A stretch of DNA of 36,300 bases, taken from contig JAGWYS010000008.1 of the NCBI GenBank assembly GCA_018969225.1, forward strand, positions 1 to 36,300, given 5' to 3'. Position numbers and translations under genes: made by a program. This document shows positions 10,865 to 33,388 of this stretch, piece by piece (within the stretch, counting starts at the first letter, position 1; the number at the start of each line of letters is the position of its first letter). The DNA comes from Gemmatimonadota bacterium (lineage in GTDB: Bacteria > Gemmatimonadota > Gemmatimonadetes > Gemmatimonadales > Gemmatimonadaceae). The notes beneath the pieces are model-generated. The model searched no databases, was not told the DNA's origin, and saw only the letters and a program-made list of their open reading frames with translations.

Positions 10865-10870
10865 CGGCCC

Positions 10871-12337
10871 ATGGTTGACGCGCGCGAGGGACCGCTGCTG
10901 GCCGCGGAGGTAGCGCGTCGGCTGGCCGAGCGGCGGGGCGAGTGGGCGGTGCTGGGGCTTGGGCGCAGCGGCGTGGCCGCCGCCCGCCTCCTGCGGGCGC
11001 TGGGGATCCCGGTGTACGCGTCCGACGGGGGTGAGGGGGCCGCCGTCCGCGACGGGGCCGAGCAGGCCGCCCGGTCCGGCGCCGATGTGGACGTGGGGCG
11101 GCACGACCTCGCGCGCGTGGCCCGGGCTTCGGTCGTGGTGGTAAGCCCCGGGATCCCCCCCTCGGCCCCCCCGCTCGCGACGGCTCGGTCGGCCGGCGTG
11201 CCGGTGGTGTCGGAGGTCGAGGTGGCACTGCGGTGCCTGCCGGGGATGCGCTACATCGCCACCACCGGCACCAACGGCAAGAGCACCGTCACCGCCATCA
11301 CCGCGCAGCTGCTGCGCGCGCTCGGGCATGACGCCGAGGCCGTGGGGAACATCGGCGTGCCGGTGGCTGAGCTGGCGCTGCGCGATCGCCCACCCGCGTG
11401 GGCGGCCGTGGAGGTCTCGTCGTTCCAGCTGCACGACACGCCCGGCATCCTCCCGGACGCGGGCGTGCTGACCACCCTGAGCCCGGATCACCTCGACCGG
11501 TATTCCTCGCTGGCGGCGTACTACGCGGACAAGCGGCGGCTCTTTGCCAACGCCACCCCGCACGCCCAGTGGGTGACCACCGCCGACAACGCCGACGTTG
11601 ATGCGCTCGTGGCCGGGATCCCCGGGCACTGGCACCGGTTCTCCACGGCCGCTGTGCCGCCAGCCGGGGTGGCGGCGTGGTATGACCGGGCGGCCGACGC
11701 CCTGCTGCTGTTCGGACGCCCGCTGGCGCCGCGCGACCGGCTCCCGCTGCCGGGGGACCACAACGTCGCCAACTTGCTGGCCTCGGTGCTGGCGATCGCC
11801 GTGGCCGACCGCGCCCACGCCGAACCGTGGGCGCGCGAGCGGTTGGCCGAGGCGGTGGCCACGGTGTCGGCGCTGGAGCACCGCCTCCAGGCTGTGGGCG
11901 AGGCGGACGGGGTGCGCTGGATCAACGATTCCAAGGCCACCAACGTGGCGTCCACGCTGGTGGCGCTGGAGGGGATGACGCGCCCCGCGGTCGTGCTGCT
12001 CGGCGGGCGTCCCAAGAACGAGCCGCTGGACCCGTTGGTGGAACCGCTCCGGCGCGTGGCGCGCGCGGTGGTCACGTATGGCGAGGCCGGGCGCGCCTTC
12101 GCCGAGGTGCTCGCGCCGGCGCTGGCGGGGCGCGCGTCCGTGGTGGCGCTCCCCCTCGGGGCCACCTTCGAGCAGGTCGTCGATCGCGCGCGCGCGCTGG
12201 CCCGTCCCGGGGACGTGCTGCTGCTCTCCCCCGCCTGCGCCAGCTACGACATGTTCCGCAACTACGAGGAGCGCGGCCGGCGCTTCGCCGAGCTGGCGGC
12301 GCGCGCCGCCGCGGGCCTTCCCGGTGATGGGCGCTGA
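10871..12337 (+). CDS. murD: UDP-MurNAc-L-alanine:D-glutamate ligase MurD
   Basis: MurD adds D-glutamate to UDP-MurNAc-L-Ala. The 488-aa protein starts at ATG 10871, six nt after mraY. It has the N-terminal nucleotide-binding pattern VLGLGRSGVAAARLL, VVVVSPGIPPSAP, the ATP loop TTGTNGKST (residues 131-139), EVSSFQL in the central domain, and NDSKATNVAST and SPACASYDMFRNYEERG in the C-terminal domain. The last is diagnostic for MurD. The end of the gene overlaps the ftsW start by 11 nt. Confidence 0.97.
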   Translation: MVDAREGPLLAAEVARRLAERRGEWAVLGLGRSGVAAARLLRALGIPVYASDGGEGAAVRDGAEQAARSGADVDVGRHDLARVARASVVVVSPGIPPSAPPLATARSAGVPVVSEVEVALRCLPGMRYIATTGTNGKSTVTAITAQLLRALGHDAEAVGNIGVPVAELALRDRPPAWAAVEVSSFQLHDTPGILPDAGVLTTLSPDHLDRYSSLAAYYADKRRLFANATPHAQWVTTADNADVDALVAGIPGHWHRFSTAAVPPAGVAAWYDRAADALLLFGRPLAPRDRLPLPGDHNVANLLASVLAIAVADRAHAEPWARERLAEAVATVSALEHRLQAVGEADGVRWINDSKATNVASTLVALEGMTRPAVVLLGGRPKNEPLDPLVEPLRRVARAVVTYGEAGRAFAEVLAPALAGRASVVALPLGATFEQVVDRARALARPGDVLLLSPACASYDMFRNYEERGRRFAELAARAAAGLPGDGR

Positions 12338-13544
12338 CCGGCCTCGTGCCGCCGCCGCACCGGCGCGCCCGGCCCGCGTCCGGCACCGCTGGGTGATGGG
12401 GCTCGAGGCGCGCCTGCTGATCGTGCTGACCGTCGTGCTCGTCGGCCTCGGCCACGTGGTGCTCTACAGCGCCAGCGCCCTGCAGGTCACCCAATACGGG
12501 CTCGCCCGCACCTTCTTCGTGGCCAACCAGGCCCAGGGGGCGCTCGCCGGCGCGATCTTGCTGCTCGTGCTGGCCCGTCTTGACGCCCAGTGGGTGCGGC
12601 GCGCGGCGTGGCCCGGGATGCTGCTCGCTCTGCTCCTCATGGCCCTGGTGCTGCTCCCCGGGATCACGCCCGTGAACGGGTCGCGTCGCTACCTCGTGGG
12701 GCGCTCGGTGCAGCCCTCGGAACTGGCCAAGCTGGCCCTGTGTGCGTGGGTGCCCCTGCTCATCGTGCGCAAGGGCGAGCGGCTGCGGGAACTCCGGCGC
12801 GGTCTGCTGCCGGTGGTGCTGGTGGTTGGGACGCTGTGCCTGCTGGCCGTCCTCGAGCCCGACCTGTCCGCGGCGATGCTGTACTGCCTGCTCACCGGCA
12901 TCCTGCTGTTCGTGGCGGGGGCGCGGTGGCGGCACTTCCTGCTCTTCACCGCAGTGGGCGCGCTCGCCCTCGGCGCCATGGCCCTGCGCCCCGGCTACGT
13001 GCGCAACCGCCTGCAGGAGTTCGCCGGGGGCGAGCTCCCCGCCGCCGCGCAGCGGGGGCTCGGGTTTCAGCAGGACCAGTCGAAGATCGCGGTCGGGTCG
13101 GGGGGCGTGCTGGGCGTCGGGCTGGCGCGCGGCAACCAGCAACGCGGGTGGCTGCCGCTCGCGTACAACGACTTCATTGCGTCCGTCATCGGCGAAGAGT
13201 TCGGTTTCGTTGGACTCGCGTTGTGCACGCTCGCCTTTGCCCTGTACGGCTACCTGGGCTTCCTGATCGCGGCGCAGGCCCGGTCCCCGTACCTCGGGCT
13301 GCTGGCCGTGGGGCTCACCACGGTGACCGTGGTCACCGCGCTCGTGCACCTCGCCGTGGTGGTGGACCTCCTCCCCAACACCGGGCTCACGCTGCCGTTC
13401 GTCTCCTACGGCCGCTCGAACCTGGTGCTCACCCTGGCCATGACCGGCATCCTCGCCAACATCGGGAGCACGCGCGAGCGCGTGTTCGGGGCGGAGGCCA
13501 CCGACCCGTTCGCCGGCCCCGGTGCCCGGCGGCTCGCCTCATGA
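12327..13544 (+). CDS. ftsW: septal peptidoglycan polymerase FtsW (SEDS family)
   Basis: FtsW is the SEDS glycosyltransferase that polymerises lipid II at the septum with its partner FtsI. I chose ATG at 12327, 11 nt inside murD; a GTG directly before it is possible. After an Ala/Arg/Pro-rich cytoplasmic tail of about 25 residues, the 405-aa protein has around ten transmembrane helices. Family motifs seen are LYSASAL near the first helix, RRYLVGRSVQPSELAKL, LEPDLSAAML, the long periplasmic loop with QDQSKIAVGSGG and YNDFIASVIGEEFGF, and LPNTGLTLPFVSYGRSN near the C-terminus. Placement between murD and murG, as in most dcw clusters, supports FtsW over RodA. Confidence 0.95.
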   Translation: MGADRPRAAAAPARPARVRHRWVMGLEARLLIVLTVVLVGLGHVVLYSASALQVTQYGLARTFFVANQAQGALAGAILLLVLARLDAQWVRRAAWPGMLLALLLMALVLLPGITPVNGSRRYLVGRSVQPSELAKLALCAWVPLLIVRKGERLRELRRGLLPVVLVVGTLCLLAVLEPDLSAAMLYCLLTGILLFVAGARWRHFLLFTAVGALALGAMALRPGYVRNRLQEFAGGELPAAAQRGLGFQQDQSKIAVGSGGVLGVGLARGNQQRGWLPLAYNDFIASVIGEEFGFVGLALCTLAFALYGYLGFLIAAQARSPYLGLLAVGLTTVTVVTALVHLAVVVDLLPNTGLTLPFVSYGRSNLVLTLAMTGILANIGSTRERVFGAEATDPFAGPGARRLAS

Positions 13545-14650
13545 GCGACGCCCCCGTGCTCTGGTTTGCCGGTGGGGGGACGGGCGGCCACCTCTACCCC
13601 GGGCTGGCCATCGCCCGCGCCGTCGTGCGCCTCGCCCCGACGGTGCGCCCATGGTTCATTGGCGCGCGGCGTGGCATCGAGCGCGAGGTGCTTCCGGGCA
13701 CGGAGTTTCCGCATGCCCTGCTGGATCTGCACCCGTTGTATCGGCGGACGCCGTGGGACAACTGGCGCACCCTCCGCGGGGGGGTGCGGGCGTGGGGCGC
13801 GCTCTCCGACCTGGCTCGGTCCGCCGGCCGTCCCATCGGGGTGGTGGGCACCGGTGGCTACGCGGCGGGGGTGGCGCTGGCGTGGGCTCGCGCACACCAG
13901 GTGCCGACGGTCCTGCATGAGCCCGACAGCCATCCCGGGCTGACGACTCGCGCCTTCGCCGGCGGCTCCCGTGCCCTCTATCTCGGGTTTCCCGAGGCCA
14001 TGGCGCATCTCCCGACGCGGGTGGCCGGGCGGTGTCACGCGCTGGGGTGCCCCATCGAACCGCCGCCCGCCGTGCCGGCGGACCGGGACGCGGCACGCCG
14101 CCGTTGGGGTTTGCCATCGACGGCGTTCGTGGTGCTGGTGGTGGGGGGCAGCCAAGGGGCCCGGGCGCTCAACGAGGCCATGCGCGCGTGGGTGGCGGCC
14201 GGCCTCCCCGAAGGGGTCGCCCTGATCTGGGCCACGGGGACCCGGCAGGCCGACGCCTATCTGGCATGCGACGGGCCGCAGGTGCGGGTACGGCCGTACT
14301 TGGCGCCGATTGCCGAGGCCTACGCCGCAGCCGACCTCGCCGTCACCCGGGCCGGGGCGATGACCATTGCGGAACTGTGCGCCTGGGGAATCCCCTCCAT
14401 CCTGGTTCCCCTGCCCACGGCGGCGCAGGACCATCAGGCGCACAATGCGCGGGCCACGGCGGGCGCGGGCGCCGCCGTCCACCTGCCGCAGGCGGAGCTG
14501 ACGCCGGCGCGCCTCCAGGAGCTGGTGACCGCGTTGCGCGGTGACCCGGCCCGCTTGGCGGCGATGGGCGCCGCCGCCCGCCGCCGCGGCCAACCGGGGG
14601 CGGCGGACGCCATCGCGCGCAGCCTGCTCGCCACCGTGGGGATCGCCTGA
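13541..14650 (+). CDS. murG: UDP-GlcNAc:lipid I N-acetylglucosaminyltransferase MurG
   Basis: MurG adds GlcNAc to lipid I on the cytoplasmic face of the membrane, forming lipid II. ATG at 13541 overlaps the ftsW stop by 4 nt. The 369-aa product has the glycine-rich loop GGGTGGH (residues 11-17), GTGGYAAGVALAWA, VLHEPDSHPG, and GGSQGARALNEAM at the start of the C-terminal Rossmann fold. TRAGAMTIAEL and AQDHQAHNA follow, matching the GT28 family donor-binding region. The LHEPDSHPG segment replaces the more usual LHEQN form, a modest variation. Confidence 0.96.
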   Translation: MSDAPVLWFAGGGTGGHLYPGLAIARAVVRLAPTVRPWFIGARRGIEREVLPGTEFPHALLDLHPLYRRTPWDNWRTLRGGVRAWGALSDLARSAGRPIGVVGTGGYAAGVALAWARAHQVPTVLHEPDSHPGLTTRAFAGGSRALYLGFPEAMAHLPTRVAGRCHALGCPIEPPPAVPADRDAARRRWGLPSTAFVVLVVGGSQGARALNEAMRAWVAAGLPEGVALIWATGTRQADAYLACDGPQVRVRPYLAPIAEAYAAADLAVTRAGAMTIAELCAWGIPSILVPLPTAAQDHQAHNARATAGAGAAVHLPQAELTPARLQELVTALRGDPARLAAMGAAARRRGQPGAADAIARSLLATVGIA

Positions 14651-14671
14651 CCCCCGTGCCATATTGCCTGC

Positions 14672-16108
14672 ATGGCCGCTGACCCCTCCCCCCGCCTTCC
14701 CACGCTGTCCCCCCCCGAGGCCGTGGCGCTGCTCACCGGGGACGACCCGCGCCCGGTGCACTTCGTGGGTATCGCCGGGGCGGGCATGAGCGCGCTGGCG
14801 GAGCTTCTGGCCCGACGGCACGTGCAGGTGCAGGGCACCGACGCCAGCCCCGACGGGGCGGTCGTGTTGCGGGCGCTGGGGATCGAGGTCTCGGCGCACG
14901 ATCCCGCCCGCGTGCCGGGCGCGCGGGCCGTGGTGTTCTCGTCCGCCATTCCCGACGGGCATCCTGAACTGCAGGCGGCGCGCGCGGCGGGGATCCCCTT
15001 GGTGCGCCGGGCGGAGGCGCTGGCGGCGGCGGTGGCGGGGGGGCCCTTGGTGGGGATCAGCGGGACGCACGGCAAGACCACCACGACCGTGATGACCACC
15101 GAGGCGCTGGTTGCCGCCGGGGTCGATCCCACCGGGGTGGTGGGCGGTCGGGTCCCCGCCTGGGGGGGAAACCTCCGCCTTGGCGGTCCCTGCGCCGTGG
15201 TGGAGGCCGACGAGTACGATCGCTCGTTCCTGGCGCTCACGCCGCAGGTGGCCGTGGTGCTCAACGTGGAGGCCGATCACCTCGACATCTACCGGGACGT
15301 GGCGGACATCGAGGGCGCCTTTGCGCGGTTCATCGCGCCGGCCCGCGCGATCGTGCGCTGTGCGGATGATCCGGGCGCCATGCGCCTCCCGGTGCGCCCG
15401 GGGCAGGAGGACTTGGCCTACGCCGCCGCCGCCCCCGGCGCGCCGGTCACCGCGACCGGTGCGCGGCTCGTGGCGCGCCAGCTGGTCCTGGATGCCGCCG
15501 GGGCCCGCTTCGTCGCCGAGCTGGATGGGCGCCCGTGCGGGGACGTGCGCCTGCAGGTGCCGGGGCTGCACAACGTGCGCAACGCGCTTGCCGCCTTGGG
15601 GGCCGGAATTGCGCTGGGGTGCGACGTGCCGGCGCTGGCGGCGGGGCTGGAGCGCTTCCGGGGCGTGGACCGGCGTTTCCAGCGCCTGGGAGAGGTGCGC
15701 GGCGTCACGGTGGTGGACGACTACGCCCACCACCCCACCGAGGTGCGCGCGACGCTGGCGGCGGCGCGCCATGCCTTCCCGGGGCGCCGGCTTCAGGTCG
15801 TGTTCCAGCCGCATCTGTACTCGCGCACCCGGGACTTCGCCGCCGAGTTCGCCGACGCGCTGGGGGCCGCCGACCGGGTGTGGCTGTGCGACATCTACGG
15901 CGCGCGGGAGGCGCCCGATCCGTCGGTTACCGCCGAGTGGATTGCCCGGGATCTGCCCCCCGGCCGCCTGGTGTGGACGGGCCCCCGCGCGGCCGTCGTC
16001 GCGCCCCTGGCCGCCGACCTGCGCGACGGCGATCTGCTCCTGACGGTGGGCGCGGGGGATGTCACCGGCGTGGGGCCGGCCGTGCTGGCCGCGCTTCGGA
16101 CCCCATGA
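14672..16108 (+). CDS. murC: UDP-MurNAc:L-alanine ligase MurC
   Basis: MurC adds the first amino acid of the stem peptide. The 478-aa protein starts at ATG 14672 after a 21-nt gap, the longest within the mur part of the cluster; no Shine-Dalgarno is visible. Motifs in order are HFVGIAGAGMSALAELL at the N-terminus, VVFSSAIPDGHPE, the ATP loop GISGTHGKTTTT (residues 128-139), VVEADEYDRSFL, and DDYAHHPTEVRATLAAAR in the C-terminal domain. All are typical of MurC. In many bacteria murB and ddl follow murC; here murC overlaps ftsQ by 4 nt, leaving no room for them. Confidence 0.97.
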   Translation: MAADPSPRLPTLSPPEAVALLTGDDPRPVHFVGIAGAGMSALAELLARRHVQVQGTDASPDGAVVLRALGIEVSAHDPARVPGARAVVFSSAIPDGHPELQAARAAGIPLVRRAEALAAAVAGGPLVGISGTHGKTTTTVMTTEALVAAGVDPTGVVGGRVPAWGGNLRLGGPCAVVEADEYDRSFLALTPQVAVVLNVEADHLDIYRDVADIEGAFARFIAPARAIVRCADDPGAMRLPVRPGQEDLAYAAAAPGAPVTATGARLVARQLVLDAAGARFVAELDGRPCGDVRLQVPGLHNVRNALAALGAGIALGCDVPALAAGLERFRGVDRRFQRLGEVRGVTVVDDYAHHPTEVRATLAAARHAFPGRRLQVVFQPHLYSRTRDFAAEFADALGAADRVWLCDIYGAREAPDPSVTAEWIARDLPPGRLVWTGPRAAVVAPLAADLRDGDLLLTVGAGDVTGVGPAVLAALRTP

Positions 16109-16836
16109 GCGAGGACGCGCCGCTCGGACGTGTGGCCGACGACCCGCGCCCGCCCCGGTCGCGTCGGCTGGCCGTGGCCGGCGGGGTGGCGCTGGTGGCG
16201 CTCGTGGTCACGGCGGGGTGGTGGGGGCCTCGCCTGCTGGCGCCCCTCGCTTTTTTTCATGTGCGGTCCATCGAGTTGCGCGGCGTCGTCTATGCCCCGG
16301 TGCCGGAATTGCTGGCGCGGCTGGGCGTGGATTCGTTGCAGTCGGTGTGGCAGCCCCTGCCGCCGCTCGCGGCCCGCGTTCGGGTGCACCCGCTGGTGGC
16401 CGAGGTCGAGGTCCGGCGGCAACTCCCCGGGACGCTGGTCGTGACGGTGCAGGAACGAGTCCCCGTCGCGTGGGCGGGGGACTCCGGGGGGATCGCCCCC
16501 GTGGATGGCACGGGCCGCCGGCTGCCGCTCGACGGGCGCACCACGCCGCTCGATCTCCCGGTGGCCGTGGACGCCGACACCGCGCTGCTGCGGTTCCTCG
16601 ACGCCCTGCGCCGCGATGCGCCCGGGCTCTTCGCCCGCGTCACCGCCGTGGCGCGCCCGACCCCCCGCGAAATCCGCGTGTCGCTCGGAGCGCTGCGGGT
16701 GCGGGCGCTCCCCGAGGTGACCGTGGCGCGCTTCCAGGACATATTTCCCGTCGAGTCCGACCTCGCCCGGAGGCACGTGGCGGTGGAGGAGCTGGATCTT
16801 CGTTTTCGTGACCAGGTGATCGCCCGAACCCCATGA
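16105..16836 (+). CDS. ftsQ: cell division protein FtsQ
   Basis: FtsQ is a bitopic membrane protein that recruits FtsL/FtsB and regulates septal synthesis. The 243-aa product starts at ATG 16105 (ATGA overlap with murC). It has a charged cytoplasmic tail (residues 1-21), one transmembrane helix (about 22-41), and a POTRA-like domain starting at FFHVRSIELRG (about 50-60). It continues with RVHPLVAEVEVRRQLPGTLVVTVQERVPVAWA, split here as RVHPLVAEVEVRRQLPG and TLVVTVQERVPVAWA. That strand-helix-strand pattern matches FtsQ/DivIB. A beta domain of about 110 residues follows. Position directly before ftsA supports the call. Confidence 0.9.
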   Translation: MSEDAPLGRVADDPRPPRSRRLAVAGGVALVALVVTAGWWGPRLLAPLAFFHVRSIELRGVVYAPVPELLARLGVDSLQSVWQPLPPLAARVRVHPLVAEVEVRRQLPGTLVVTVQERVPVAWAGDSGGIAPVDGTGRRLPLDGRTTPLDLPVAVDADTALLRFLDALRRDAPGLFARVTAVARPTPREIRVSLGALRVRALPEVTVARFQDIFPVESDLARRHVAVEELDLRFRDQVIARTP

Positions 16837-18083
16837 CCGCAGAGCCCGTGGTTGCCGCCCTTGACGTCGGCACGGCCCACACCACCGCCCTTCTGGCGTC
16901 GGTGCATGACGGTGGCGGGCGCGCGCCGCGCTTGCGGATCCTGGGGGTGGCCGAGACCCGCACCGCCGGGCTGCGGCGGGGCGTCGTCGCGGACATCGAG
17001 GAGGCGACGCGGTCCATCCGGTCCGCGGTGGAGGAGGCCACCCGGCTGGCTGGGGTCGTCCCCGACGGGGTGTATGCGGGGATCGCCGGCGAGCATGTGC
17101 GGGCCAGCACGTCCTCGGGGGTGGTGGCCATCAGCGGCGACGAGATCTCGCGCGCCGACGTGGAACGGGTCAACGAGGTGGCGCGCGCCCTGGCCATTCC
17201 GCAGGAGCGCGAACTGCTGCACGCCATCGCGCAGGAGTACCGGGTGGACCGGACCGAGGGGATCCGCGACCCGGTGGGGATGATCGGGACGCGGTTGGAG
17301 GCGGAACTGTGTCTCGTGACGATCGGCAGCGCCCCCGCGATGCACCTGCGCAAGAGCATCGAGCGCGCGCAATTCCGGGTGCGCGAGCTGGTGCTGGAGC
17401 CGCTGGCCAGTGCGCAGGCCGTGCTGACCGAAGAGGAGCGGGAGGCGGGCGTGGCGCTCCTGGAGCTGGGAGCCGGGTCCACCGACCTCGTCGTGTTCCA
17501 CGAAGGGAAGATTCGCCACCTCGGGACCATTCCGGTTGGTGGGCACACGGTGACCAGCGACCTCGTGCAGGGACTGGGGATCACGCAGTCGGACGCGGAG
17601 CGCCTCAAGGAGGCGTACGGGTGCGCGTACGAGCCCCTCATCGATCCGGCGCAGGTCATCGCGATGCCGTCCACCGGCACGCAGGGGGAGCGCCACCTGT
17701 CCCGGGAGTTGATGACGCACATCATCCACCAGCGGATGGACGAACTGTTCGACACGGCGCGCCGGCAGGTGGAGGGCGCGGGGTTCGTGGGGCGGCTGAA
17801 CGCGGGGGTGGTCCTCACCGGGGGCGGGGCCTCCCTTGAGGGGGTGACCGAGCTGGCCGCTGACGTGTTTGGGGTGGGAGCTCGGGTGGGAATGCCCGGC
17901 CGGCACCTGGAGGGGTTGGTGGAGCAGGTGGCGTCCCCCCGATTTGCCACGGCCGTGGGCTTGGCGTTGCACGGGGCGCAGCGCGCGGCGCTGGGCGGCG
18001 GCGGCCCTCGTCGCGCGGCCTTGGGGGGCGGTGTGGACAAGTGGGCCGCCCGCGTGAAGGGCTGGTTGCAGGACTATTTCTGA
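16833..18083 (+). CDS. ftsA: cell division protein FtsA
   Basis: FtsA is an actin-like ATPase that tethers FtsZ to the membrane and links it to the divisome. The 416-aa protein starts at ATG 16833 (ATGA overlap with ftsQ). It shows the first phosphate loop [14 protein letters not shown], the SHS2 subdomain region with [10 protein letters not shown], the second phosphate loop [14 protein letters not shown], and the adenosine motif [12 protein letters not shown]. The C-terminal end, [14 protein letters not shown], is the expected amphipathic membrane-targeting helix, after a Gly/Ala/Arg-rich linker. It is separated from ftsZ by 124 nt that contain a promoter-like sequence. Confidence 0.96.
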
Positions 18084-18098
18084 CTGTCGGGCCCCGGG

Positions 18099-18126
18099 TT
18101 GCGCGGGGCGGCGCGGTGTATATTCT
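18099..18126 (+). promoter_or_regulatory. possible internal promoter for ftsZ
   Basis: TTGCGC (18099-18104) and TATTCT (18121-18126) are spaced 16 nt apart. An overlapping TATATT (18119-18124) is closer to the -10 consensus but only 14 nt from the -35. The sequence stands out as AT-rich against its surroundings. It would give ftsZ its own transcript with a leader of about 75 nt that is strongly C-rich. Extra ftsZ promoters are common in other bacteria. Confidence 0.45.
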
Positions 18127-18207
18127 AGGCGTAGTGGCCGCCGTCAGCGCCCTGCGACGGTACCCCCCTCCCCCTGCGCCCCCCCGCCGCGTATGGAGCT
18201 CCCCCGG

Positions 18208-19470
18208 ATGACGTTCGCGTTCGAAGAAAGCGGGTCCCAGACTGCTCGCATGAAGGTTGTCGGCGTGGGCGGCGGCGGTGGCAATGCGGTCAACCGCATG
18301 ATCGACGAGCACCTCGAGGGGGTCGAGTTCATTTCGATGAACACCGACGCCCAGGCGCTGCTCAATTCGAAGGCGGACGTCAAGATCCAGATCGGCAAGA
18401 ACCTCACCCGCGGGCTGGGTGCCGGGGCGCGCCCGGACGTCGGGCGGCAGGCCATCGAGGAGAACCGCGAGGACGCGCGGCGCGCGCTGGCCAATGCCGA
18501 CCTGGTGTTCGTCACCTGCGGCATGGGCGGAGGCACCGGGACCGGGGCGGCCCCCGTGGTGTGCCAGCTCGCGCGGGAGGCCGGCGCGCTGACGGTGGGG
18601 ATCGTCACGCGCCCCTTCCTCTTCGAGGGGCGTCGCCGGCTGAAGTTCGCCGAGGAGGGGATCGCCGAGATGCGCAAGCATGTGGACACGATGATCGTCG
18701 TGCCGAACGAGCGGCTGCTGGCGGTCGTTGGCAAGGGGATCCCGTTCCACGACGCGCTCAAGAAGGCCGACGAGGTCCTGTTGCACGCCACCCAGGGGAT
18801 CTCGCTGCTGATCAGCGAGACCGGGATGGTGAACGTGGACTTCGCCGACGTGCGCACGATCATGCAGAACGGCGGGTCGGCGCTGATGGGCACCGGGGTC
18901 GGCCGCGGCGAAAACCGTGCGGTGGAGGCGGCGCAGCAGGCGATCGCATCGCCGCTGCTCGACAATGTGTCCATTGGCGGGGCCAGCGGCGTGCTCATCA
19001 ACATCACCGGCGGGGAGGACGTGACGCTGGGCGAGGTCACGCTCATCACCGAAATGGTGCATGCCGCCGCCGGGGATGACGCGGAGATCATCTTCGGCGC
19101 GGTCACCGAGCCGGCGATGTCCAACGAAGTGCGGGTCACCGTGATCGCGACGGGCTTCGACCGGGTGCCGGCCGTCGGCTCGGCTGGCCCCGGGGTATCG
19201 GTGCCGGTGGTGGGCGGTGCGGGGGCAGGGCAGGGCGGAGCGGGCGCGGCCACGGGCGGGACGGGGGCGGTCCCCGCCGGCGCCACGGCACGCGGCAACC
19301 CGCAGGTGTTGCCGTTCCCGGTGGGCAACCGGTCGGCCGCGCGTCCCGTGCAGCCGCCGCGCCCCACCGGCGACGCGGTGCCGCGTCCGCCGCGGGCCCC
19401 CGCCACCTCGGTCAACCAGGAGGTGGAGGACATGGAGATCCCCACCTTCATTCGCCGGCAGATGGATTGA
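18208..19470 (+). CDS. ftsZ: cell division GTPase FtsZ
   Basis: FtsZ polymerises into the Z-ring that organises septation. I prefer ATG at 18208 because GGAG lies at 18195-18198 with 9-nt spacing; ATG 18193 would extend it by five residues and has no ribosome site. The 420-aa product has [14 protein letters not shown] (residues 16-29), the GTP signature GGGTGTG (107-113), and the T7 synergy loop NVDFADV with Asp211 and Asp214. A Gly/Ala/Pro-rich linker (about 330-405) leads to the C-terminal peptide [11 protein letters not shown] that binds FtsA. The stop codon overlaps the start of an M23 peptidase gene. Confidence 0.97.
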
Positions 19471-20753
19471 CCCCCGCCGCCCGCACCCTCGCCGTGGCGC
19501 TCGGCGCCCTCGTGCTCGGGGGCGTGGTGCTGTCGCGCAGTCGTCCGATGCCGCAGCGGGTCCCCGGGGCGCTGCTCGACGCTGCGGCGCGCGATTCCGC
19601 GCGCGCCCGGTGGCACACGCGTGTGGACACGGTGCGACGCGGCGAGCAACTGGCGGTGGTCCTCGAACGTGCCGGCATCCCCGGGCCCGACGCGGCCGCG
19701 GCGCTGGCCGCGACCCGGGTGCTGGACGCCCGCCGCGTCCGCGCCGGTACGGCCGTGACAACCCGGGTGCACGCCGATTCAGGGCCTGCCGAAATCGTGT
19801 TTCAACTGGCCATCGACCGGTTGGTGCGCCTCTCGCGCCGCTCCGGGACGGCGTGGGACGAGCGCGAAGAGCGGCTCCCCTGGCAGACCGACACGGTGGT
19901 GGTCGGCGCCATCGTGTCGTCCACGCTCACGGCCGCCCTCGAGCGCGGCGCCGAGGCCTTTCCCGAGCAGGTCCGCGCCGAGGTGGCGTATGCCCTCGCC
20001 GACATCCTCGAATACCGCGTGGACCTGAGCCGCGACCTGCGGCAGGGGGACTCGGTCCGCATGCTGATCGAGCGGCAACGCGCTCCCAACGGCTTGGTAC
20101 GCCCAGGCAACATCCTCGCCGCTCGGGTGACGGTGGATGGCCGCCCGGTGGAAACGGTGCGCTTCATGCAACGCGACCGTCCCGCCTACTTCGACGGCGA
20201 GGGCAAGGCCATGCGCGCCGCCTTCCTGCGGGCTCCCTTGGCCTTCCGCCGCATCTCCAGCGTCTTCGGGATGCGTCGGCACCCCATCCTCGGCATCCTG
20301 CGCGCCCACCAGGGCACCGACTACGCCGCCGCCGCCGGCACCCCGGTGCGCGCCTTGGGTGATGGACGCGTGATCTTCGCCGGCTGGAAGGGGGGCTACG
20401 GGCGGGTCGTCGAGATTCGCCACCGCAACGGCTTCGTCACCCGGTATGGCCACCTCAACGGCTTTGCCAAGGGGATTCGCGCCGGGGCGTCGGTGGGCAT
20501 CGCCAACACCATCGGCTTCGTGGGGGCCACCGGGCTGGCCACCGCCCCGCACCTGCACTTCGAGGTGCTCGTGGGCGGTCGGCACCGCGACCCGCGTCAG
20601 GTGCTCCGCAACATGGCGGGCGAACCGCTGGCCGCTGCCCATCGTCCGGCCTTCCTGTCGCTGAAGAGCCGAGTCTTCGCGCTCCTGGACGCGTCGGCTG
20701 GCGCGCGGTCGGTCGGCAGCCGCGAGCTGCTCCCGGCGCCGCGCGGCGACTGA
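19467..20753 (+). CDS. M23 (LytM-type) metallopeptidase, membrane-anchored
   Basis: This 428-aa protein probably cleaves peptidoglycan crossbridges or stem peptides in the periplasm. TTG at 19467 overlaps the ftsZ stop (TTGA). A GTG about 27 nt later is an alternative, but both leave an N-terminal hydrophobic helix (about residues 8-24). A region at about 45-110 ([17 protein letters not shown]) resembles LysM/OapA-like modules. The C-terminal LytM domain retains the M23 zinc and catalytic pattern: RRHPILG, His281 and Asp285 in HQGTD, RYGHL, and His362/His364 in HLHFE. It should therefore be active, unlike EnvC-type activators. Coupling to ftsZ suggests a role in septal splitting; that is inference. 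Confidence 0.9.
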
Positions 20754-20792
20754 GCCTCGCTGCGCGCCGTGAGCGCCCCGTTGGACCCGGTG

Positions 20793-20810
20793 GCACCCAC
20801 CGGCGGGTGC
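20793..20810 (+). other. small GC hairpin between the M23 gene and the next gene
   Basis: GCACCC (20793-20798) and GGGTGC (20805-20810) can pair around a 6-nt loop. It lies 40 nt after the M23 stop codon and 30 nt before the next start. There is no T-run after it, so termination is doubtful. The rest of the 86-nt gap shows nothing I can name. Confidence 0.25.
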
Positions 20811-20839
20811 GTGCGTCCCGGATGCCGTAAGCCGCGCGC

Positions 20840-22795
20840 ATGATCCTCTGGTTGCTGGCGCTGGCGCTGGGGGCGGTGGCCGCCGTGCTTGCCTACCCGC
20901 GGTCCCAGTGGACGGGTGCCGGACGGGCCAGACGGGCCGTCGCTGCGCTGGCGGTCATGCGAGGGGCCGCCGTCACCATGGTGGCCGCCCTGCTGCTTGG
21001 TGCGCCGCGAGCGCCGGCGCGGCCGCTGCCTCCCCTGCTCGCCGTGGACGTGTCGGCCTCGTGGCGTCGCGCCGCCGCCGACCCTGCCGGTCTCCCTGGC
21101 CGGGTGCAGTGGGTGGTGGACAGTGTGTCACAGGCCGCCGTCACGGCGGGCGGCGCGGGCACCGCGGCACCCGAGGTGTGGTGGGTGGGCGATTCGCTCC
21201 GCCCGGCGGGCTCCTCCGCGCCGCGCCTGGCCCTCGACGACCAGGCCACCCGCGTGCGTCCTGCCGTGGACCTGGCCAACGCCACGGGGCGCGCCCTTTG
21301 GCTGGTGTCCGATGGCGTGCTCGACGACGCCGAGGCCCTGGGGGACGCCCCGCCCGGGTCCCGGTGGGTCGTCCCCACAGCTGATCCGCGAGCGGACTTG
21401 GCCGTAGCCGCGTTGGATGTCCCGTCCGAAGCACGGGCTGGGGATACCCTCGCTGTCCAGGCGGAACTCGTGGCAGGAGGGCGCGGCGCGCCAGGCGGCC
21501 TGCTGGAATGGCGGCTTGACGGGGTTCCGGTGGCGTCGTCCCCGGTCAATGCATCCGCCCCATGGGGGGCGGTGCGCGTGGGCGCGCGCCTGCCCACGCC
21601 GAGAGGGGGGCGGATTGCCGTCGTGACAGCCACCCTGGCCGTGGCGGGCGACCTGGAACCGCACAACGACACCCTCCGCAGTGCCGTCACCTTGGCCGAT
21701 CGCCCGGCCGCCGTGTTGGTTTCGTCGGCGCCCGACCTCGACGTGCGCGAGGTGCTGCGCATCCTGCGCGGGGCGCTCCGCGTCCCCGCAGAGGCCTACC
21801 TGCGCGTGGCGCCGGGACAGTGGCGGGTGGAAGGGAGCTTGGCGCCGATCGACGAGGACGTCGTGCGCCAGCGCGCGCGGGAGGCCGCCGTGCTGGTGAT
21901 CCACGGAGACTCCCTCTGGCGCGACGGCGCAGGGCCGGCGCGTGGCGCGGCGGCCCGCGCCATCTGGACACCGGCCCCCCCGCCCTCCGGGCGCGCGGGG
22001 CAGGGGACGCCCGCTGGCGAGTGGTACGTCGCCCCTCCCGACGCTCCCCTGCGGGGGGGCGCGGAGGTCCCGTCGCTGCTGGCCGCGCTGGCGGCGCTTC
22101 CGGTGGATTCCCTCGCGCCCATCGCCTTGCCGAGCGGGTCGGACTCGGCGGCGCTGGGTGGCGCAACCCCGGGCCCTCTGTTGGCGGCCCGCTTGGGCAA
22201 GCGTGGGCCGGCGCGCCCGGTGGTCGTGGCCTCCCAGCGGGGAGGGCGACGCGAGGTGCGGATTCAGGGGTCCGGCTATGCCGGGTGGGCCCTGCGGGGG
22301 GGGCGCAGCGCTGAGGCCTTCGCGGCCCTGTGGGGCAGTGTGTTCGACTGGCTGGCTGCCGGGCGCGCGGATCAGCGGCTGGCGGTGCCGGCGCGCGGGG
22401 CCTTTCGGGCTGGCGAACCGATTCTGTGGCGGCGCGGTGGCGCCGACTCCGTGGTCACGGTCCGGATCAGCCCCGCTCGCGGATCGGTGCCCGTCGTTGG
22501 CGCACGCGCCGATTCCGTCATCCTTCGCTTCGGGGCCGACGGGCGCGAGGCCTGGTCCCCGGCGCTGCCGCCGGGGGACTGGGCGGTGGACGCGCCGGGC
22601 GGACGGGCGGTGCTGGTCGTCAACGCGTCGCCGGAGTGGGTGCCGCGTCCGCCGGCGTCCCCTGCCACGCCTCCGGCTGGTGCTCTCTCGCCTTCCGCTC
22701 CCCCGCGTCTGGTGGAGGCCGGCTGGCCCTTCGTGCTTGCCCTGCTGCTGCTGTCGGCGGAGTGGATCGGCCGCCGCTACGCCGGGTATCGCTGA
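20840..22795 (+). CDS. large membrane protein with BatA/VWA-like layout, function unknown
   Basis: The 651-aa product has two N-terminal transmembrane helices (about residues 1-18 and 33-55), a large extracytoplasmic part, and a C-terminal helix (about 626-643) followed by the short basic tail IGRRYAGYR. DVSAS at residues 70-74 resembles the DxSxS start of a von Willebrand A metal site. The second half of a VWA fold is not obvious, so the domain may be degenerate or of a related fold. Further on are beta-rich segments (for example PRGGRIAVVTATLAVAGDL), as in CARDB or BatA-type proteins. The architecture recalls N-terminal double-transmembrane proteins of aerotolerance operons; this is a loose comparison. 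It sits between the M23 peptidase and ftsY. No function is assigned. Confidence 0.75.
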   Translation: MILWLLALALGAVAAVLAYPRSQWTGAGRARRAVAALAVMRGAAVTMVAALLLGAPRAPARPLPPLLAVDVSASWRRAAADPAGLPGRVQWVVDSVSQAAVTAGGAGTAAPEVWWVGDSLRPAGSSAPRLALDDQATRVRPAVDLANATGRALWLVSDGVLDDAEALGDAPPGSRWVVPTADPRADLAVAALDVPSEARAGDTLAVQAELVAGGRGAPGGLLEWRLDGVPVASSPVNASAPWGAVRVGARLPTPRGGRIAVVTATLAVAGDLEPHNDTLRSAVTLADRPAAVLVSSAPDLDVREVLRILRGALRVPAEAYLRVAPGQWRVEGSLAPIDEDVVRQRAREAAVLVIHGDSLWRDGAGPARGAAARAIWTPAPPPSGRAGQGTPAGEWYVAPPDAPLRGGAEVPSLLAALAALPVDSLAPIALPSGSDSAALGGATPGPLLAARLGKRGPARPVVVASQRGGRREVRIQGSGYAGWALRGGRSAEAFAALWGSVFDWLAAGRADQRLAVPARGAFRAGEPILWRRGGADSVVTVRISPARGSVPVVGARADSVILRFGADGREAWSPALPPGDWAVDAPGGRAVLVVNASPEWVPRPPASPATPPAGALSPSAPPRLVEAGWPFVLALLLLSAEWIGRRYAGYR

Positions 22796-22807
22796 CCATC
22801 GTCCCCG

Positions 22808-22826
22808 TCGGGGGCGTCCCCCCCGA
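22808..22826 (+). other. hairpin upstream of ftsY
   Basis: TCGGGGG (22808-22814) pairs with CCCCCGA (22820-22826) around a 5-nt loop, 12 nt after the preceding stop codon. No T-run follows. It could weaken readthrough or shape the ftsY leader; neither can be judged from sequence. Confidence 0.3.
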
Positions 22827-22843
22827 TCGCCCAGCCTTCATTC

Positions 22844-23773
22844 ATGGCCCGACTGTTTCGACGCAAGGAAGACGTGCCGCGTCGCTCCCTGTGGGAGCGC
22901 GTCAAGGATCTCGTGCGCACCGATGTCCGGGTGCTCTTCACGGGGGTGGATCAGGGGTCGCTTGAGGCGCTGGAGTCGCTCCTGATCGAGGCCGACTTCG
23001 GGGTGCCCACGGCGTTGGCGCTGGTGGCGGAGGTGGAGCGCCGGGCCAAGCGCGGCGAGGTGCGCACCGAGGCGGAATTCCGGGCGGCGCTGGCGGAGGG
23101 GATTGAGGCGGCGCTGGTCAGGGGCAATGCGGCGCCGGCACTCCGCCTGGCCCCGAGCGCTCCCACCGTGCTGCTGGTGATCGGCGTCAACGGCGCCGGG
23201 AAGACCACGTTCATTGGCAAGCTGGCCGCTCGCCTGCGCACGGAGGGGAAGCGGGTGCTGGTGGGGGCGGCCGACACCTTCCGGGCCGGGGCCATCGACC
23301 AACTCCGCGTGTGGGCCGAGCGGAGCGGGGCCGAGTTCGTGGGTGGGGCGGCGGGGGGGGATCCGGCGGCGGTCGCCTTCGACGCGGTGGATGCGGGCAT
23401 CACGCGCGGTGCGGACGTCGTGATCGTGGATACCGCCGGCCGACTGCACACCAGCGACGACCTCATGACCGAGTTGCGCAAGGTGCATCGCGTCGTTGGC
23501 AAGCGGCTCCCCGGGGCGCCGCACGAGGTCCTGCTGGTGCTGGACGGCACCATCGGCCAGAATGCTCTGGCGCAGGCACGCACCTTCGCGGCCGCGGTCC
23601 CCGTCACGGGCGTGGTGGTCACCAAGCTGGACGGCACCGCCAAGGGGGGGATCGTGGTCGCGGTGCACGAGGCGCTGGACGTGCCGGTCAAGTTCGTCGG
23701 CGTTGGGGAACAGGTGGGGGATCTCGAGCCGTTCGACGCCGCCCTCTACGCGCGGGAGCTGGTGGAGGCGTGA
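22844..23773 (+). CDS. ftsY: signal recognition particle receptor FtsY
   Basis: FtsY is the SRP receptor GTPase that, with Ffh and 4.5S RNA, delivers ribosomes to the Sec translocon. The 309-aa protein has a short basic N-terminus (MARLFRRKEDVPRR), then the NG domain. It carries the helical N bundle with LLIEADFGVPTAL, G1 GVNGAGKTT (residues 114-122), DTFRAGAIDQL, G3 DTAGR (196-200), and TKLDGTAKGG as G4. It lacks the long acidic A domain of E. coli FtsY, as do many bacterial homologues. The leader has no Shine-Dalgarno. Its stop overlaps the recG GTG start. Confidence 0.97.
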   Translation: MARLFRRKEDVPRRSLWERVKDLVRTDVRVLFTGVDQGSLEALESLLIEADFGVPTALALVAEVERRAKRGEVRTEAEFRAALAEGIEAALVRGNAAPALRLAPSAPTVLLVIGVNGAGKTTFIGKLAARLRTEGKRVLVGAADTFRAGAIDQLRVWAERSGAEFVGGAAGGDPAAVAFDAVDAGITRGADVVIVDTAGRLHTSDDLMTELRKVHRVVGKRLPGAPHEVLLVLDGTIGQNALAQARTFAAAVPVTGVVVTKLDGTAKGGIVVAVHEALDVPVKFVGVGEQVGDLEPFDAALYARELVEA

Positions 23774-30497: not shown

Positions 30498-30892
30498 GCC
30501 TCGACACACTGCGTGAGGCCGCCGACCGGGCGCGCGCCAACGCCTGGTGCCCGTATTCCCGCTACCCGGTGGGTGCGGCGCTGGAGGCGGAGGACGGCCG
30601 GATCTTCGCCGGGTGCAACGTGGAGAACGCCGCGTATCCGTCCGGCGTGTGCGCGGAGCGCGTCGCGCTGGGCACGGCGGTGGCCGCCGGCGCCCGCCGC
30701 TTTGCGCGGTTGGTCATCACGTCGGCGGCTGCGGAACCCACGCCCCCGTGCGGCATGTGTCGACAGGCCCTGGTCGAGTTCGCCCCGGCGCTGGACATCG
30801 TGGCCATCACCCCGGACGGGCGCGCTGCCTCGTGGTCGCTGGCCCACCTGCTTCCCAGCCCTTTCACGCCCTCCTCGCTCGCGCATGATTGA
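30494..30892 (+). CDS. cdd: cytidine deaminase
   Basis: Cdd converts cytidine and deoxycytidine to the uridine forms. ATG at 30494 overlaps the deoB stop (ATGA); an in-frame start further upstream lies inside deoB. The 132-aa size matches the small homotetrameric class. Zinc ligands are Cys53, Cys86 and Cys89, in CAER and PCGMCRQ, with the catalytic Glu55. These are the same positions as in the well-studied Bacillus enzyme. CNVENAAYPSGV forms the substrate-binding loop. The last 8 nt overlap the following lipoprotein gene. Confidence 0.96.
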   Translation: MSLDTLREAADRARANAWCPYSRYPVGAALEAEDGRIFAGCNVENAAYPSGVCAERVALGTAVAAGARRFARLVITSAAAEPTPPCGMCRQALVEFAPALDIVAITPDGRAASWSLAHLLPSPFTPSSLAHD

Positions 30893-32186
30893 GCGCCGTG
30901 TCGTCCCGGGGCGCCGACTCCGGCGCCTGTCCGTACCCTGGTTGGCCGCCGCCGTGGCGGCCACCGTGGCGGCCTCCGCCTGCACCGAATCGTACGAGGG
31001 GGGGGCGGCGTGCCCGTCGCTCTGTCCCCGCTCGCTGGTGGCCTTCGTGGACACCACCATCGATGCCGTCGCCCTCGATAGCGCCGTCGGCGGGTTCCCC
31101 ACCCTCGGGCTCTCCAGCACGCTGCTGGTGGCCAACCGTCCCGACACCCTCGTCACCAGCATGGTGGTGCGCTTCGACCAGCTCACCGCCACCTTCTTCC
31201 CCAATCGGGGCACCGTGTCCGAGCAGGTCACGGCCATCGATTCCGTCTTCCTCAAGCTGCCGCTGGACAGCACCGGGCGGCGCGGCACCCAGACCGTGCG
31301 CGTCGAAGTCTTCGACGTGGACACGGTCCTCAGCGATTCCGTGGCGGCCGTCGTGCAGTCGCTGTTCCGACCGGACCGTTTGGTGGGCAGCGCCACGGTG
31401 GTGCCGGCGCTCACCACCGACTCCCTCCGGGTGCCGCTCGACCGGCGCCGCCTTCTGGCGCAGGTGTCCAGTGGTGGTCGCTTCCGGGTGGGCGTGCGGA
31501 TCACCGGTGGCAACGGGCAACTGCGGGTGATCGCATCCCAGGGCGGCTTTGGCGCTCCGACGCTGTCCTACGACCCCAGCACGGACACCACGTACGCCCC
31601 CGTGGTGGTCAGCCCCAGCACCCCGCTGGCCGGGGCGTCGGCGGAGGTCGCCCAAGCCTACACCGTCTACGGGCTCACGCAGCTCGGGTCGTCCCCCCCA
31701 GGGCCCGCGACGCTCGTGGTGGGCGGGTATCCTTCCTACCGCACCTACCTGCGCTTCGCGCTGCCAGGCCGCATCATCGATTCCAGCACGATCGTCCGCG
31801 CACAGCTCGTGCTCGTGCAGCGGCCGTCGCGCTTTGGCAACAGCGCCGACTCGGTCACGCTGGTGCCCCTGGTGCCGTCTGCCACCTCGCTGGTGACCGA
31901 CTTGCGACGGGTGCTCGAGCTCAGCGCCGAGGGGTTCCTGGCAGGCCTTGAGACCGGGCTGCGCGTGGTCCCTCGCGACAGTGGGGAGCGCACGTTCAAC
32001 TTGCTGGCGCTTACGCGCACGTGGCGCAACCTCCCCCGTGACGTGCCCCGCGCGGTGGCCTTCCGCATCGACGGCGAGGGCGCCCAGCCTGCGGAGGTGC
32101 GCTTCCATTCCCTCGAGGCGGCTCCGGCGCTGCGTCCGCGGCTGCGTCTCACCTACTTGCCGCGCGCGGAGTTCGCCCTGCCATGA
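30885..32186 (+). CDS. surface or periplasmic lipoprotein with two DNRLRE/CBM96-like repeats
   Basis: ATG at 30885, 8 nt inside cdd, opens a 433-aa protein. It has a basic N-terminus, a hydrophobic stretch, and a lipobox-like ASAC with Cys33, so lipidation is likely. After a short Cys-containing segment (GAACPSLCPRS) there are two regions of similar build. Region one runs about residues 45-200 and includes TLGLSSTLLVAN, MVVRFDQL and IDSVFLKLPLD. Region two runs about 235-433 and includes TLVVGGYPSYRTYLRFALPG, RAQLVLVQR and FHSLEAAPALRPRLRLTYL. The pattern recalls DNRLRE/CBM96-type beta sandwiches on secreted proteins; I infer this from layout only. The gene overlaps a beta-barrel gene by 4 nt, which suggests the two act together. 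Substrate unknown. Confidence 0.8.
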   Translation: MIERRVVPGRRLRRLSVPWLAAAVAATVAASACTESYEGGAACPSLCPRSLVAFVDTTIDAVALDSAVGGFPTLGLSSTLLVANRPDTLVTSMVVRFDQLTATFFPNRGTVSEQVTAIDSVFLKLPLDSTGRRGTQTVRVEVFDVDTVLSDSVAAVVQSLFRPDRLVGSATVVPALTTDSLRVPLDRRRLLAQVSSGGRFRVGVRITGGNGQLRVIASQGGFGAPTLSYDPSTDTTYAPVVVSPSTPLAGASAEVAQAYTVYGLTQLGSSPPGPATLVVGGYPSYRTYLRFALPGRIIDSSTIVRAQLVLVQRPSRFGNSADSVTLVPLVPSATSLVTDLRRVLELSAEGFLAGLETGLRVVPRDSGERTFNLLALTRTWRNLPRDVPRAVAFRIDGEGAQPAEVRFHSLEAAPALRPRLRLTYLPRAEFALP

Positions 32187-33388
32187 CCCGCCGCCTCATC
32201 CTTGGCCACCCGCTCGCCATGCCGGTCGGGACCCCTCGCGGCCGCCGCGTGGCCGGCTGGAGCGTGCCCGCACTGGCCCTGGCGGCGGTGTCATTGGGCA
32301 CCCCGGCCGCCAACGCGCAAGGCACCCTCAGCACCCTGGGGTTCGGGTACCCTGTGGGCGCGGCCAGCATCCGCGTCAACGGCACGGCCGGCGCCTTTGG
32401 AGAGTTCGATCCCCTCTCGGCCATCAACCCCGCGGCCATTGGGGGGATCCAGCGCGCGGTCATTGGCGCCCAGGCCGAGCCGGAGCGCCGCACCGTGACC
32501 ATCGGGGCCGCGCGGGAGCGCTCCAATGTGCAGCGCGTCCCCCTCATCGCCGTGCTCTTTCCGGCCGGCAAGGGATTCGGCGTGGCCCTCAGCGGCAGCG
32601 CATTCCTGGACCGATCCCACGTCACCACCACCACCGGGTCGGTGAGCATCGACGGCCGCCCCGTGCCCACCACGGACTTCGAGAACGCCAAGGGCGCCAT
32701 CAGCGACATGCGTGCCGCCGTCGGGTGGGAGCGCGCGCGGGTGAAGGTGGGGCTCGCCGGCCACCTCCTCACGGGCAGCCACCTGGTGGCGCGCACCAGG
32801 ACCTTCTCCGACTCCCTGCAGTACGGCGGGGTCGTGGACTCCTCGCGGGCCGCGTACACCGGAACGGCCCTGTCGATGGGGGCCGAGGTGCGCTTGCCCG
32901 CCGGAGTGGCGCTGCTGGGGTCCTGGCGTGCCGGCGGCACGCTGGATGCGCGCATCCGCGACACCGTCCGCACCGCGGGCTCGGTGCCGCGGCGCCTCGG
33001 GCTGGGTGTGCGCTTCGATGGCATCCCGGGGGCGGTGTTCGCCGCGGGCATCGAGGAGGTGCGCTGGACCGACATGGCCCCGCTTGGCTCGGCGGCGGTG
33101 CGCACGCAGGATGCCACCAATTGGAAGCTGGGGGTCGAGGTGGCGGGCCCCAGGCTGCGCGAAAGCCCGGTGCTGGTCCGGGCCGGGGTGGCCCGGACGG
33201 CGCTCCCGTTCGGCACAGCGGCGCTGGCCGTCCGGGAGTCGCGTGCCTCGATGGGGGTGGGCGTGCCCATTGCCCGCGAATCGGCCATGCTGGACCTGTC
33301 GATCCAGCGGGCCGTCCGCTCGCCGTCCGCCGGAACCGCGCGCGAGCGCGCATGGCTGCTGGGCATCGGCCTGCAGGTCCGACCCTGA
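32183..33388 (+). CDS. predicted outer-membrane beta-barrel protein (PorV/UPF0164-like)
   Basis: ATG at 32183 overlaps the lipoprotein stop (ATGA) and gives 401 aa with a 45-residue leader ending in PAANA. An internal ATG at 32219 would give a more usual 33-residue signal peptide, so the start is uncertain. The mature part begins QGTLSTLGFGYPVG and then AFGEFDPLSAINPAAIGG. That recalls the SxxxNPAxL segment of PorV/PorQ and UPF0164 barrels. The rest is a run of alternating hydrophobic strands with short Gly/Asp turns, such as GFGVALSGSAFLDRSHV and RVKVGLAGHLLTGS. The protein does not end in an aromatic residue as classical barrels do. Function unknown; it probably pairs with the lipoprotein. 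Confidence 0.75.
   Translation: MTRRLILGHPLAMPVGTPRGRRVAGWSVPALALAAVSLGTPAANAQGTLSTLGFGYPVGAASIRVNGTAGAFGEFDPLSAINPAAIGGIQRAVIGAQAEPERRTVTIGAARERSNVQRVPLIAVLFPAGKGFGVALSGSAFLDRSHVTTTTGSVSIDGRPVPTTDFENAKGAISDMRAAVGWERARVKVGLAGHLLTGSHLVARTRTFSDSLQYGGVVDSSRAAYTGTALSMGAEVRLPAGVALLGSWRAGGTLDARIRDTVRTAGSVPRRLGLGVRFDGIPGAVFAAGIEEVRWTDMAPLGSAAVRTQDATNWKLGVEVAGPRLRESPVLVRAGVARTALPFGTAALAVRESRASMGVGVPIARESAMLDLSIQRAVRSPSAGTARERAWLLGIGLQVRP

Follow-up and report, generated by a model that had tools for sequence, protein, structure and literature searches.

A BamH-BamG-like gene pair in Gemmatimonadota, a probable counterpart of two subunits of the Bacteroidota outer-membrane assembly machinery

We describe here a pair of overlapping genes, coding for a lipoprotein and an outer-membrane barrel protein, near the end of a stretch of 36,300 nucleotides of DNA from a bacterium of the phylum Gemmatimonadota (assembly GCA_018969225.1). 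This stretch, in the following called the window, is one complete contig (C115) of the genome it comes from, which we call its own genome. The two proteins resemble BamH and BamG, two subunits of the beta-barrel assembly machinery (BAM) of Bacteroidota, and we use these names for the genes (Table 1). The stop codon of bamH (TGA, 32184-32186) and the start codon of bamG (ATG, 32183-32185) merge into ATGA, the 4-nt overlap that a first-pass annotation, made from the sequence alone, had reported; at its other end bamH, with its ATG at 30885, is overlapped by the stop codon of cdd (30890-30892) by 8 nt. A scan of named genome contigs gave 22 related near loci. The two genes are adjacent in all of them, and a start of the ATGA or GTGA type at -4 is available in each, so that the overlap is not due to chance. 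Such close coupling had been read as the mark of a complex. The pair is conserved as well as coupled, and the two proteins most likely form one complex. The contigs of the near relatives are mostly metagenome-assembled genomes (MAGs) named Gemmatimonas, Gemmatimonadaceae, Gemmatimonadetes or Gemmatimonadota. One of them (L063) is filed as Candidatus Kuenenia stuttgartiensis and bears a Gemmatimonas gene block, with a barrel that is 58% identical; it is probably a misnamed MAG.

Table 1. Features of the bamH-bamG-like pair (positions in the window; aa, amino acids; ORF, open reading frame)
Feature	Position	Strand	Basis
bamH-like lipoprotein gene, 433 aa (401 aa from lipid Cys)	30885..32186	+	ORF, A2 profile, model
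Signal peptide of bamH-like lipoprotein, 32 aa	30885..30980	+	hydrophobic stretch, lipobox AASA/C
Lipid-anchor Cys33 and conserved N-terminal stretch CTESYEGGAACPSLCP	30981..31028	+	alignment A2 (19 rows)
ATGA, 4-nt overlap of bamH stop and bamG start	32183..32186	+	sequence; translational coupling
bamG-like FadL-type outer-membrane barrel gene, 401 aa	32183..33388	+	ORF, NF053685, PDB profile, model
Signal peptide of bamG-like barrel, 45 aa, inferred cleavage ANA/QG	32183..32317	+	sequence; A45-Q46 conserved in at least 90% (22 rows)
Conserved N-terminal tail of the mature barrel QGTLSTLGFGYPVGAASIRV	32318..32377	+	A1 conservation; structural alignment

The Pfam scan of the window barrel gave no match at E ≤ 10, and in NCBIfam the only match was the BamG family NF053685 (E = 2.5e-10, 40 bits). 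The same family was matched at E ≤ 0.01 (best 8e-24) by all 22 rows of A1, our alignment of 22 barrel sequences, as the sole family listed. A profile of A1, compared with all PDB sequences, put the BamG chains 9hiv_F (1.2e-16), 9n2d_B (1.2e-11) and 9hjm_F (2.1e-10) on top, and the first match other than BamG was CymD (E = 0.013). When single sequences were compared with the PDB by phmmer, the barrel had no match and the lipoprotein matched antibody light chains alone (E = 1.1). Only family profiles were sensitive enough for this pair.

The AlphaFold2 model of the mature barrel, built from 23 sequences, is confident (mean pLDDT, the predicted local distance difference test, 88.8) and bears out the prediction of an outer-membrane barrel. 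With this model, the three BamG chains take ranks 1 to 3 in Foldseek, with template modelling (TM) scores of 0.80-0.83, as compared with 0.55-0.69 for the listed FadL-type transporters and 0.44 for PorV. VIA-align gives the same order (Z = 37.9, 37.0 and 36.6 for the BamG chains, 34.3 for FadL, 24.3 for PorV), with an identity of 13-17% between the barrel and the BamG chains in the structural alignment. Compared with FadL, the mature barrel has an N-tail extended by about 8 residues, given the inferred cleavage site and the structural alignment, in which residue 11 of the model pairs with FadL residue 3, and residue 2 with the start of BamG 9n2d_B. In this tail G53 and G55 are invariant, and Q46 and S62 nearly so, over the 22 rows of A1. 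An extended N-tail, expected to be conserved and to exceed that of FadL by about 10 residues, is what distinguishes BamG from FadL in both papers that describe BamG (PMC12611786, PMC12578637).

The lipoprotein has, by its sequence, a signal peptide and a lipobox that ends in Cys33 (AASA/CTESYEGG), followed by C43, P44 and C47, which are invariant in the 19 rows of A2, our alignment of 19 lipoprotein sequences. Two of the six residues after the lipid Cys are acidic in the window lipoprotein, which resembles the signals that direct lipoproteins to the surface in Bacteroidota. According to the rule that we took from PMC12578637, two or more such residues in the six after the Cys indicate surface export; they are found in 21 of 21 near-set lipoproteins including that of the window (20 by script, L065 by eye), and in 11 of 17 wider relatives. 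In the outgroup class (L102, L103, L112, L113) the Cys is followed by a G-x-LLVP-like stretch, unlike the CPxLCP start of Gemmatimonadales. This outgroup start may be closer to the start of Bacteroidota BamH.

No Pfam family, CBM96 included, matched the window lipoprotein at E ≤ 10. The A2 profile retrieved P. gingivalis BamH (9hjm_G) as the top PDB match (E = 5.6e-4; the next match had 0.37). The AlphaFold2 model of the lipoprotein (22 sequences) is beta-rich and fair (mean pLDDT 71.7). Searched with Foldseek, it found the BamH chains of P. gingivalis (E = 1.1e-9) and F. johnsoniae (5.7e-9) at ranks 1 and 2, well ahead of the next match (1.4e-4). In VIA-align the BamH chains of three species (9hjm_G, 9n2d_C and 9his_G) occupied ranks 1 to 3, with Z = 16.3, 15.4 and 13.9 over 346, 342 and 355 of the 401 residues and an identity of 9-13%, and the chondroitin-sulfate-binding module 8wab came fourth (Z = 13.7). 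The two proteins of the pair are thus homologous to BamG and BamH, and their predicted structures contain the barrel and the beta-domains that the first-pass annotation had expected.

The same annotation had described two repeated beta-sandwich-like regions in the lipoprotein and had pointed to DNRLRE/CBM96-type families (CBM, carbohydrate-binding module). The two-region build agrees with the beta-rich model. A repeat is weakly suggested by the comparison of the two halves with hhalign (126 columns, E = 0.006, probability 6%), which scored 23.6, while none of 20 column-shuffled controls went beyond 16.8. The resemblance to DNRLRE is likewise weak: NF033679 reached 19.7 bits on the window lipoprotein, below its cut-off of 34, and 15 of the 19 A2 rows matched at E ≤ 1.

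Two papers of 2025 identified BamG and BamH as core subunits of the BAM complex of Bacteroidota (PMC12611786, PMC12578637). There BamG is bound to the back of BamA, and BamH contributes to an extracellular canopy or dome over the folding site. For F. johnsoniae both genes are essential, and deletion in B. thetaiotaomicron was possible for bamH but not for bamG (PMC12611786, PMC12578637). Liu et al. report conserved BamG and BamH for six of the seven remaining phyla of the Fibrobacteres-Chlorobi-Bacteroidetes (FCB) group, and they note that the one phylum of this group in which BamGH is missing has no SusCD or SprA either (PMC12611786). According to Silale et al., BamH is apparently confined to Bacteroidota (PMC12578637). 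The main texts of the two papers do not mention Gemmatimonadota. Since BamG and BamH are solved counterparts, the pair is not the undescribed module that it had been proposed to be; this kind of system is already described, and the Gemmatimonadota pair adds a member to it.

With BamG (Fjoh_1412, Bt4367; 9n2d_B, 9hiv_F, 9hjm_F; NF053685) the barrel shares the FadL-type fold, the extended N-tail and the BamH-like lipoprotein partner, but unlike in Bacteroidota its gene overlaps bamH in one operon and its identity is low, as is its score (40 against 250 bits). With BamH (Fjoh_0823, Bt4306; 9n2d_C, 9his_G and 9hjm_G, named DUF4270 protein) the lipoprotein shares the lipid anchor, a beta-rich fold over its whole length, a domain like the chondroitin-sulfate CBM, and acidic residues after the lipid Cys. 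On the other hand, the mature lipoprotein has 401 aa as compared with 439-520 residues in the solved BamH chains, is without a Pfam DUF4270 match, and in the source order carries the conserved CPxLCP after its anchor. BamH docks on BamG, with its lipid between BamA and BamG; the pair described here, whose genes are adjacent, would be expected to do the same.

We estimate at about 0.86 the probability that the pair is the Gemmatimonadota form of BamH-BamG and part of a Bacteroidota-like BAM complex. Two different proteins of one operon point to BamG and BamH, subunits that are in contact with each other in one complex. Judging from the solved complexes, this pair would associate with BAM and bind BamA, with the barrel placed in the outer membrane at the back of the BamA barrel and its extended N-tail passing out of the lateral opening in the direction of BamA. 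The lipoprotein would be at the cell surface, clients with large outside parts may be sheltered or proof-read there, and the pair may be essential; the overlapping genes would allow both subunits to be made in step. As far as BamA, SprA, SusC and SusD are concerned, the machinery that this reading needs is present in the own genome. BamA is over the cut-off (C373) and its L6 motif is LRGY, as in F. johnsoniae BamA (PMC12611786); furthermore there are SprA (C364), 13 SusD matches and a SusC-SusD neighbour pair on C322.

Several observations weigh against this interpretation. The 40 bits of the window barrel lie below the curated cut-off of NF053685 (250 bits), a family that is over the cut-off nowhere in the own genome and also matches, below it, in Caulobacter; we therefore call the barrel a BamG-type homologue and not a member of the NF053685 model. 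FadL trails BamG by only about 3 Z units in VIA-align. Pfam DUF4270 is matched neither by the window lipoprotein nor by the 19 rows of A2 or 10 wider lipoproteins, and none of the wider lipoprotein profiles A6 (18), A7 (4) and A8 (12) retrieves BamH in the PDB (the best match of A7 was Miranda, 0.03), so that of the sequence evidence only the A2 profile leads to BamH, next to the evidence of the fold. Comparison by hhalign (99.4% and 98.3%), together with gene position, suggests that A2, A8 and A7 belong to one family. The lipoprotein model is only fair, with a Foldseek TM of 0.44-0.51 to BamH, and the other four models made of it have a pLDDT of 48.5-53.4. Finally, judging by locus numbers, the main bamG and bamH of Bacteroidota are not neighbours and bamG2 and bamH2 are (PMC12611786, PMC12578637), so that the gene order here fits the BamG2-BamH2 paralogues better.

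This last point raises the question whether the pair is rather a counterpart of BamG2-BamH2, a surface complex that stands apart from the main BAM complex. In B. thetaiotaomicron bamG2-bamH2 is a putative operon of adjacent genes, like the pair in the window, and BamH2 falls short of BamH by about 100 residues (PMC12578637), which can be compared with the 401 aa against 439-520 given above. However, the Bacteroidota BamG2H2 are dispensable extra copies that are hardly expressed (PMC12611786, PMC12578637), whereas in Gemmatimonadota nearly every one of the 146 genomes has one copy of the pair, and the same profile finds no second main pair; it is thus the sole copy in most genomes. We consider a BamG2-BamH2 counterpart unlikely.

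A transporter of the FadL type for hydrophobic molecules, together with a substrate-capturing surface lipoprotein, would also agree with the barrel fold, which is close to FadL (Z = 34.3), and with the CBM-like domains of the lipoprotein (8wab). This is very improbable in our view, as the three BamG chains outrank every FadL transporter by profile, Foldseek and VIA-align, the lipoprotein matches BamH over its whole length and not over one CBM-like domain only, and a transporter would not usually be conserved almost universally within a housekeeping block; there is also no transport or type IX secretion system (T9SS) partner in the operon. The first-pass annotation had called the barrel PorV/UPF0164-like. 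PorV does belong to the wider FadL group in which the barrel falls, and SprA is present in the own genome, so one could think of a PorV-like shuttle pair linked to type IX secretion. PorV is, however, more distant from the barrel than BamG or FadL (TM 0.44; Z = 24.3), no PorV family of NCBIfam matches the window barrel at E ≤ 10, and all 43 genomes in which SprA is not detectable have kept the barrel, which leaves this explanation hardly any probability. The same annotation was right that the pair is no known transporter pair: SusCD likewise consists of a barrel and a surface lipoprotein, but neither window protein matches a SusC or SusD family in Pfam or NCBIfam, and the own genome has separate SusC and SusD genes.

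How widely the pair is conserved was examined with profile searches of 150 Gemmatimonadota genomes, each at least 90% complete (the own genome: 86%) and many of them in many contigs, in which a limited number of candidates per genome was scored. The barrel was found in 146 of them, mostly as a single copy. The lipoprotein profile matched in 134 genomes, in 132 of these directly upstream of the barrel and on the same strand; in the remaining two (G129, G169) the matches are at contig ends. Among the 12 barrel genomes without a lipoprotein profile match, inspection revealed an adjacent upstream ORF with a lipobox Cys in 11 (380-420 residues from the Cys in the ten that were measured), and in G150 the contig ends upstream of the barrel. 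A lipoprotein gene is thus directly upstream of the barrel in 143 of the 146 genomes, the other three breaking at a contig end, and together with the 22 near loci this agrees with the expected co-occurrence of the two genes in relatives. In 20 wider loci there is an adjacent upstream ORF in every case, with a lipobox seen in 19 (L087 and L100 read by eye, L089 from the same gene elsewhere in the analysis) and unsettled in L092.

The barrel is absent by profile in four genomes. In three of them it is likely to be missing through an assembly gap, because the neighbouring alr is also not found (G101, G153) or is cut at a contig end (G136). In G084 (96% complete) alr was found on C74 and no barrel within 17 kb around it; this genome has SusD and SprA. 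In one genome of family f7 (G147, C1) there are two copies of the barrel, one on each strand (2725337-2726473 and 564885-566021), and their scores are similar.

Liu et al. tie BamGH to SusCD and SprA by one correlation across phyla and a suppressor strain (PMC12611786), and the Gemmatimonadota genomes allow this link to be viewed within one phylum. SusD was scored as present if PF07980 (123 of the 150 genomes) or PF14322 (72) matched; SusC (TIGR04056) was over the cut-off in 136 genomes and SprA was found in 107, where absences are absences by profile. Of the 96 genomes with both SusD and SprA, 92 have the barrel, as do 28 of 28 with SusD only, 11 of 11 with SprA only and 15 of 15 with neither. 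Within the phylum, the distribution of the pair thus does not mirror that of SusD or SprA. Since 15 of the 146 barrel genomes show neither, SusD and SprA are probably not the only reason to keep BamGH.

These 15 genomes are spread over several genera, with 8 in genus g52. A SusC-family receptor scores over the cut-off in 13 of the 15, the two exceptions being G112 and the fragmented, 90% complete G169. The view that SusD and SprA are the only clients is thereby weakened, but large TonB receptors may be clients, and some of the absences may be due to gaps in the genomes. In genus g52 of family f7 (G069, G072, G080, G081, G085, G096, G170) we also observed SusC-family receptors over the cut-off without detectable SusD.

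The gene order in the near relatives is alr-deoB-cdd-bamH-bamG-miaB-comEC, and cdd and deoB are upstream in all 20 near loci that hold upstream DNA (the loci L064 and L071 start within bamH). Among the 20 wider loci, alr lies near the pair in 18, cdd in 15 and deoB in 8, and in the outgroup loci L102 and L103 none of the three does. It is thus the bamH-bamG pair, and not the salvage genes, that is the constant unit. The link to nucleoside salvage, suggested by the first-pass annotation, reduces to local gene order, as 12 of the 20 wider loci show no deoB and 5 no cdd next to the pair, which itself stays, and we dropped a coupling to salvage. Upstream of this block the window contains a cell-wall and division cluster, murE-murF-mraY-murD-murC-ftsA-ftsZ-ftsY (6745-23773). 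Between ftsZ and ftsY there is an ORF of 651 aa (20840-22795) without an NCBIfam match at 1e-5, which may code for a real, unknown protein or have arisen by chance in GC-rich DNA.

Because the pair is kept without SusD and SprA, BamGH may have a general core job, e.g. sheltering any barrel with large outside loops. Tentatively, and at less than even odds, one could see BamGH, in Gemmatimonadota a translationally coupled and mostly single-copy operon within a housekeeping block, as an ancient general module of outer-membrane assembly that predates its proposed special clients, with the dependence of SusCD and T9SS arising later. Our analysis gives a name to a gene pair on which Pfam is silent, and the coupled operon offers a simple two-gene handle for deletion. 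Gemmatimonadota, in which the pair is near-universal and SusD and SprA come and go, are a cleaner natural test of the role of BamGH, and the genomes that have the pair without SusD and SprA can reveal what else BamGH serves.

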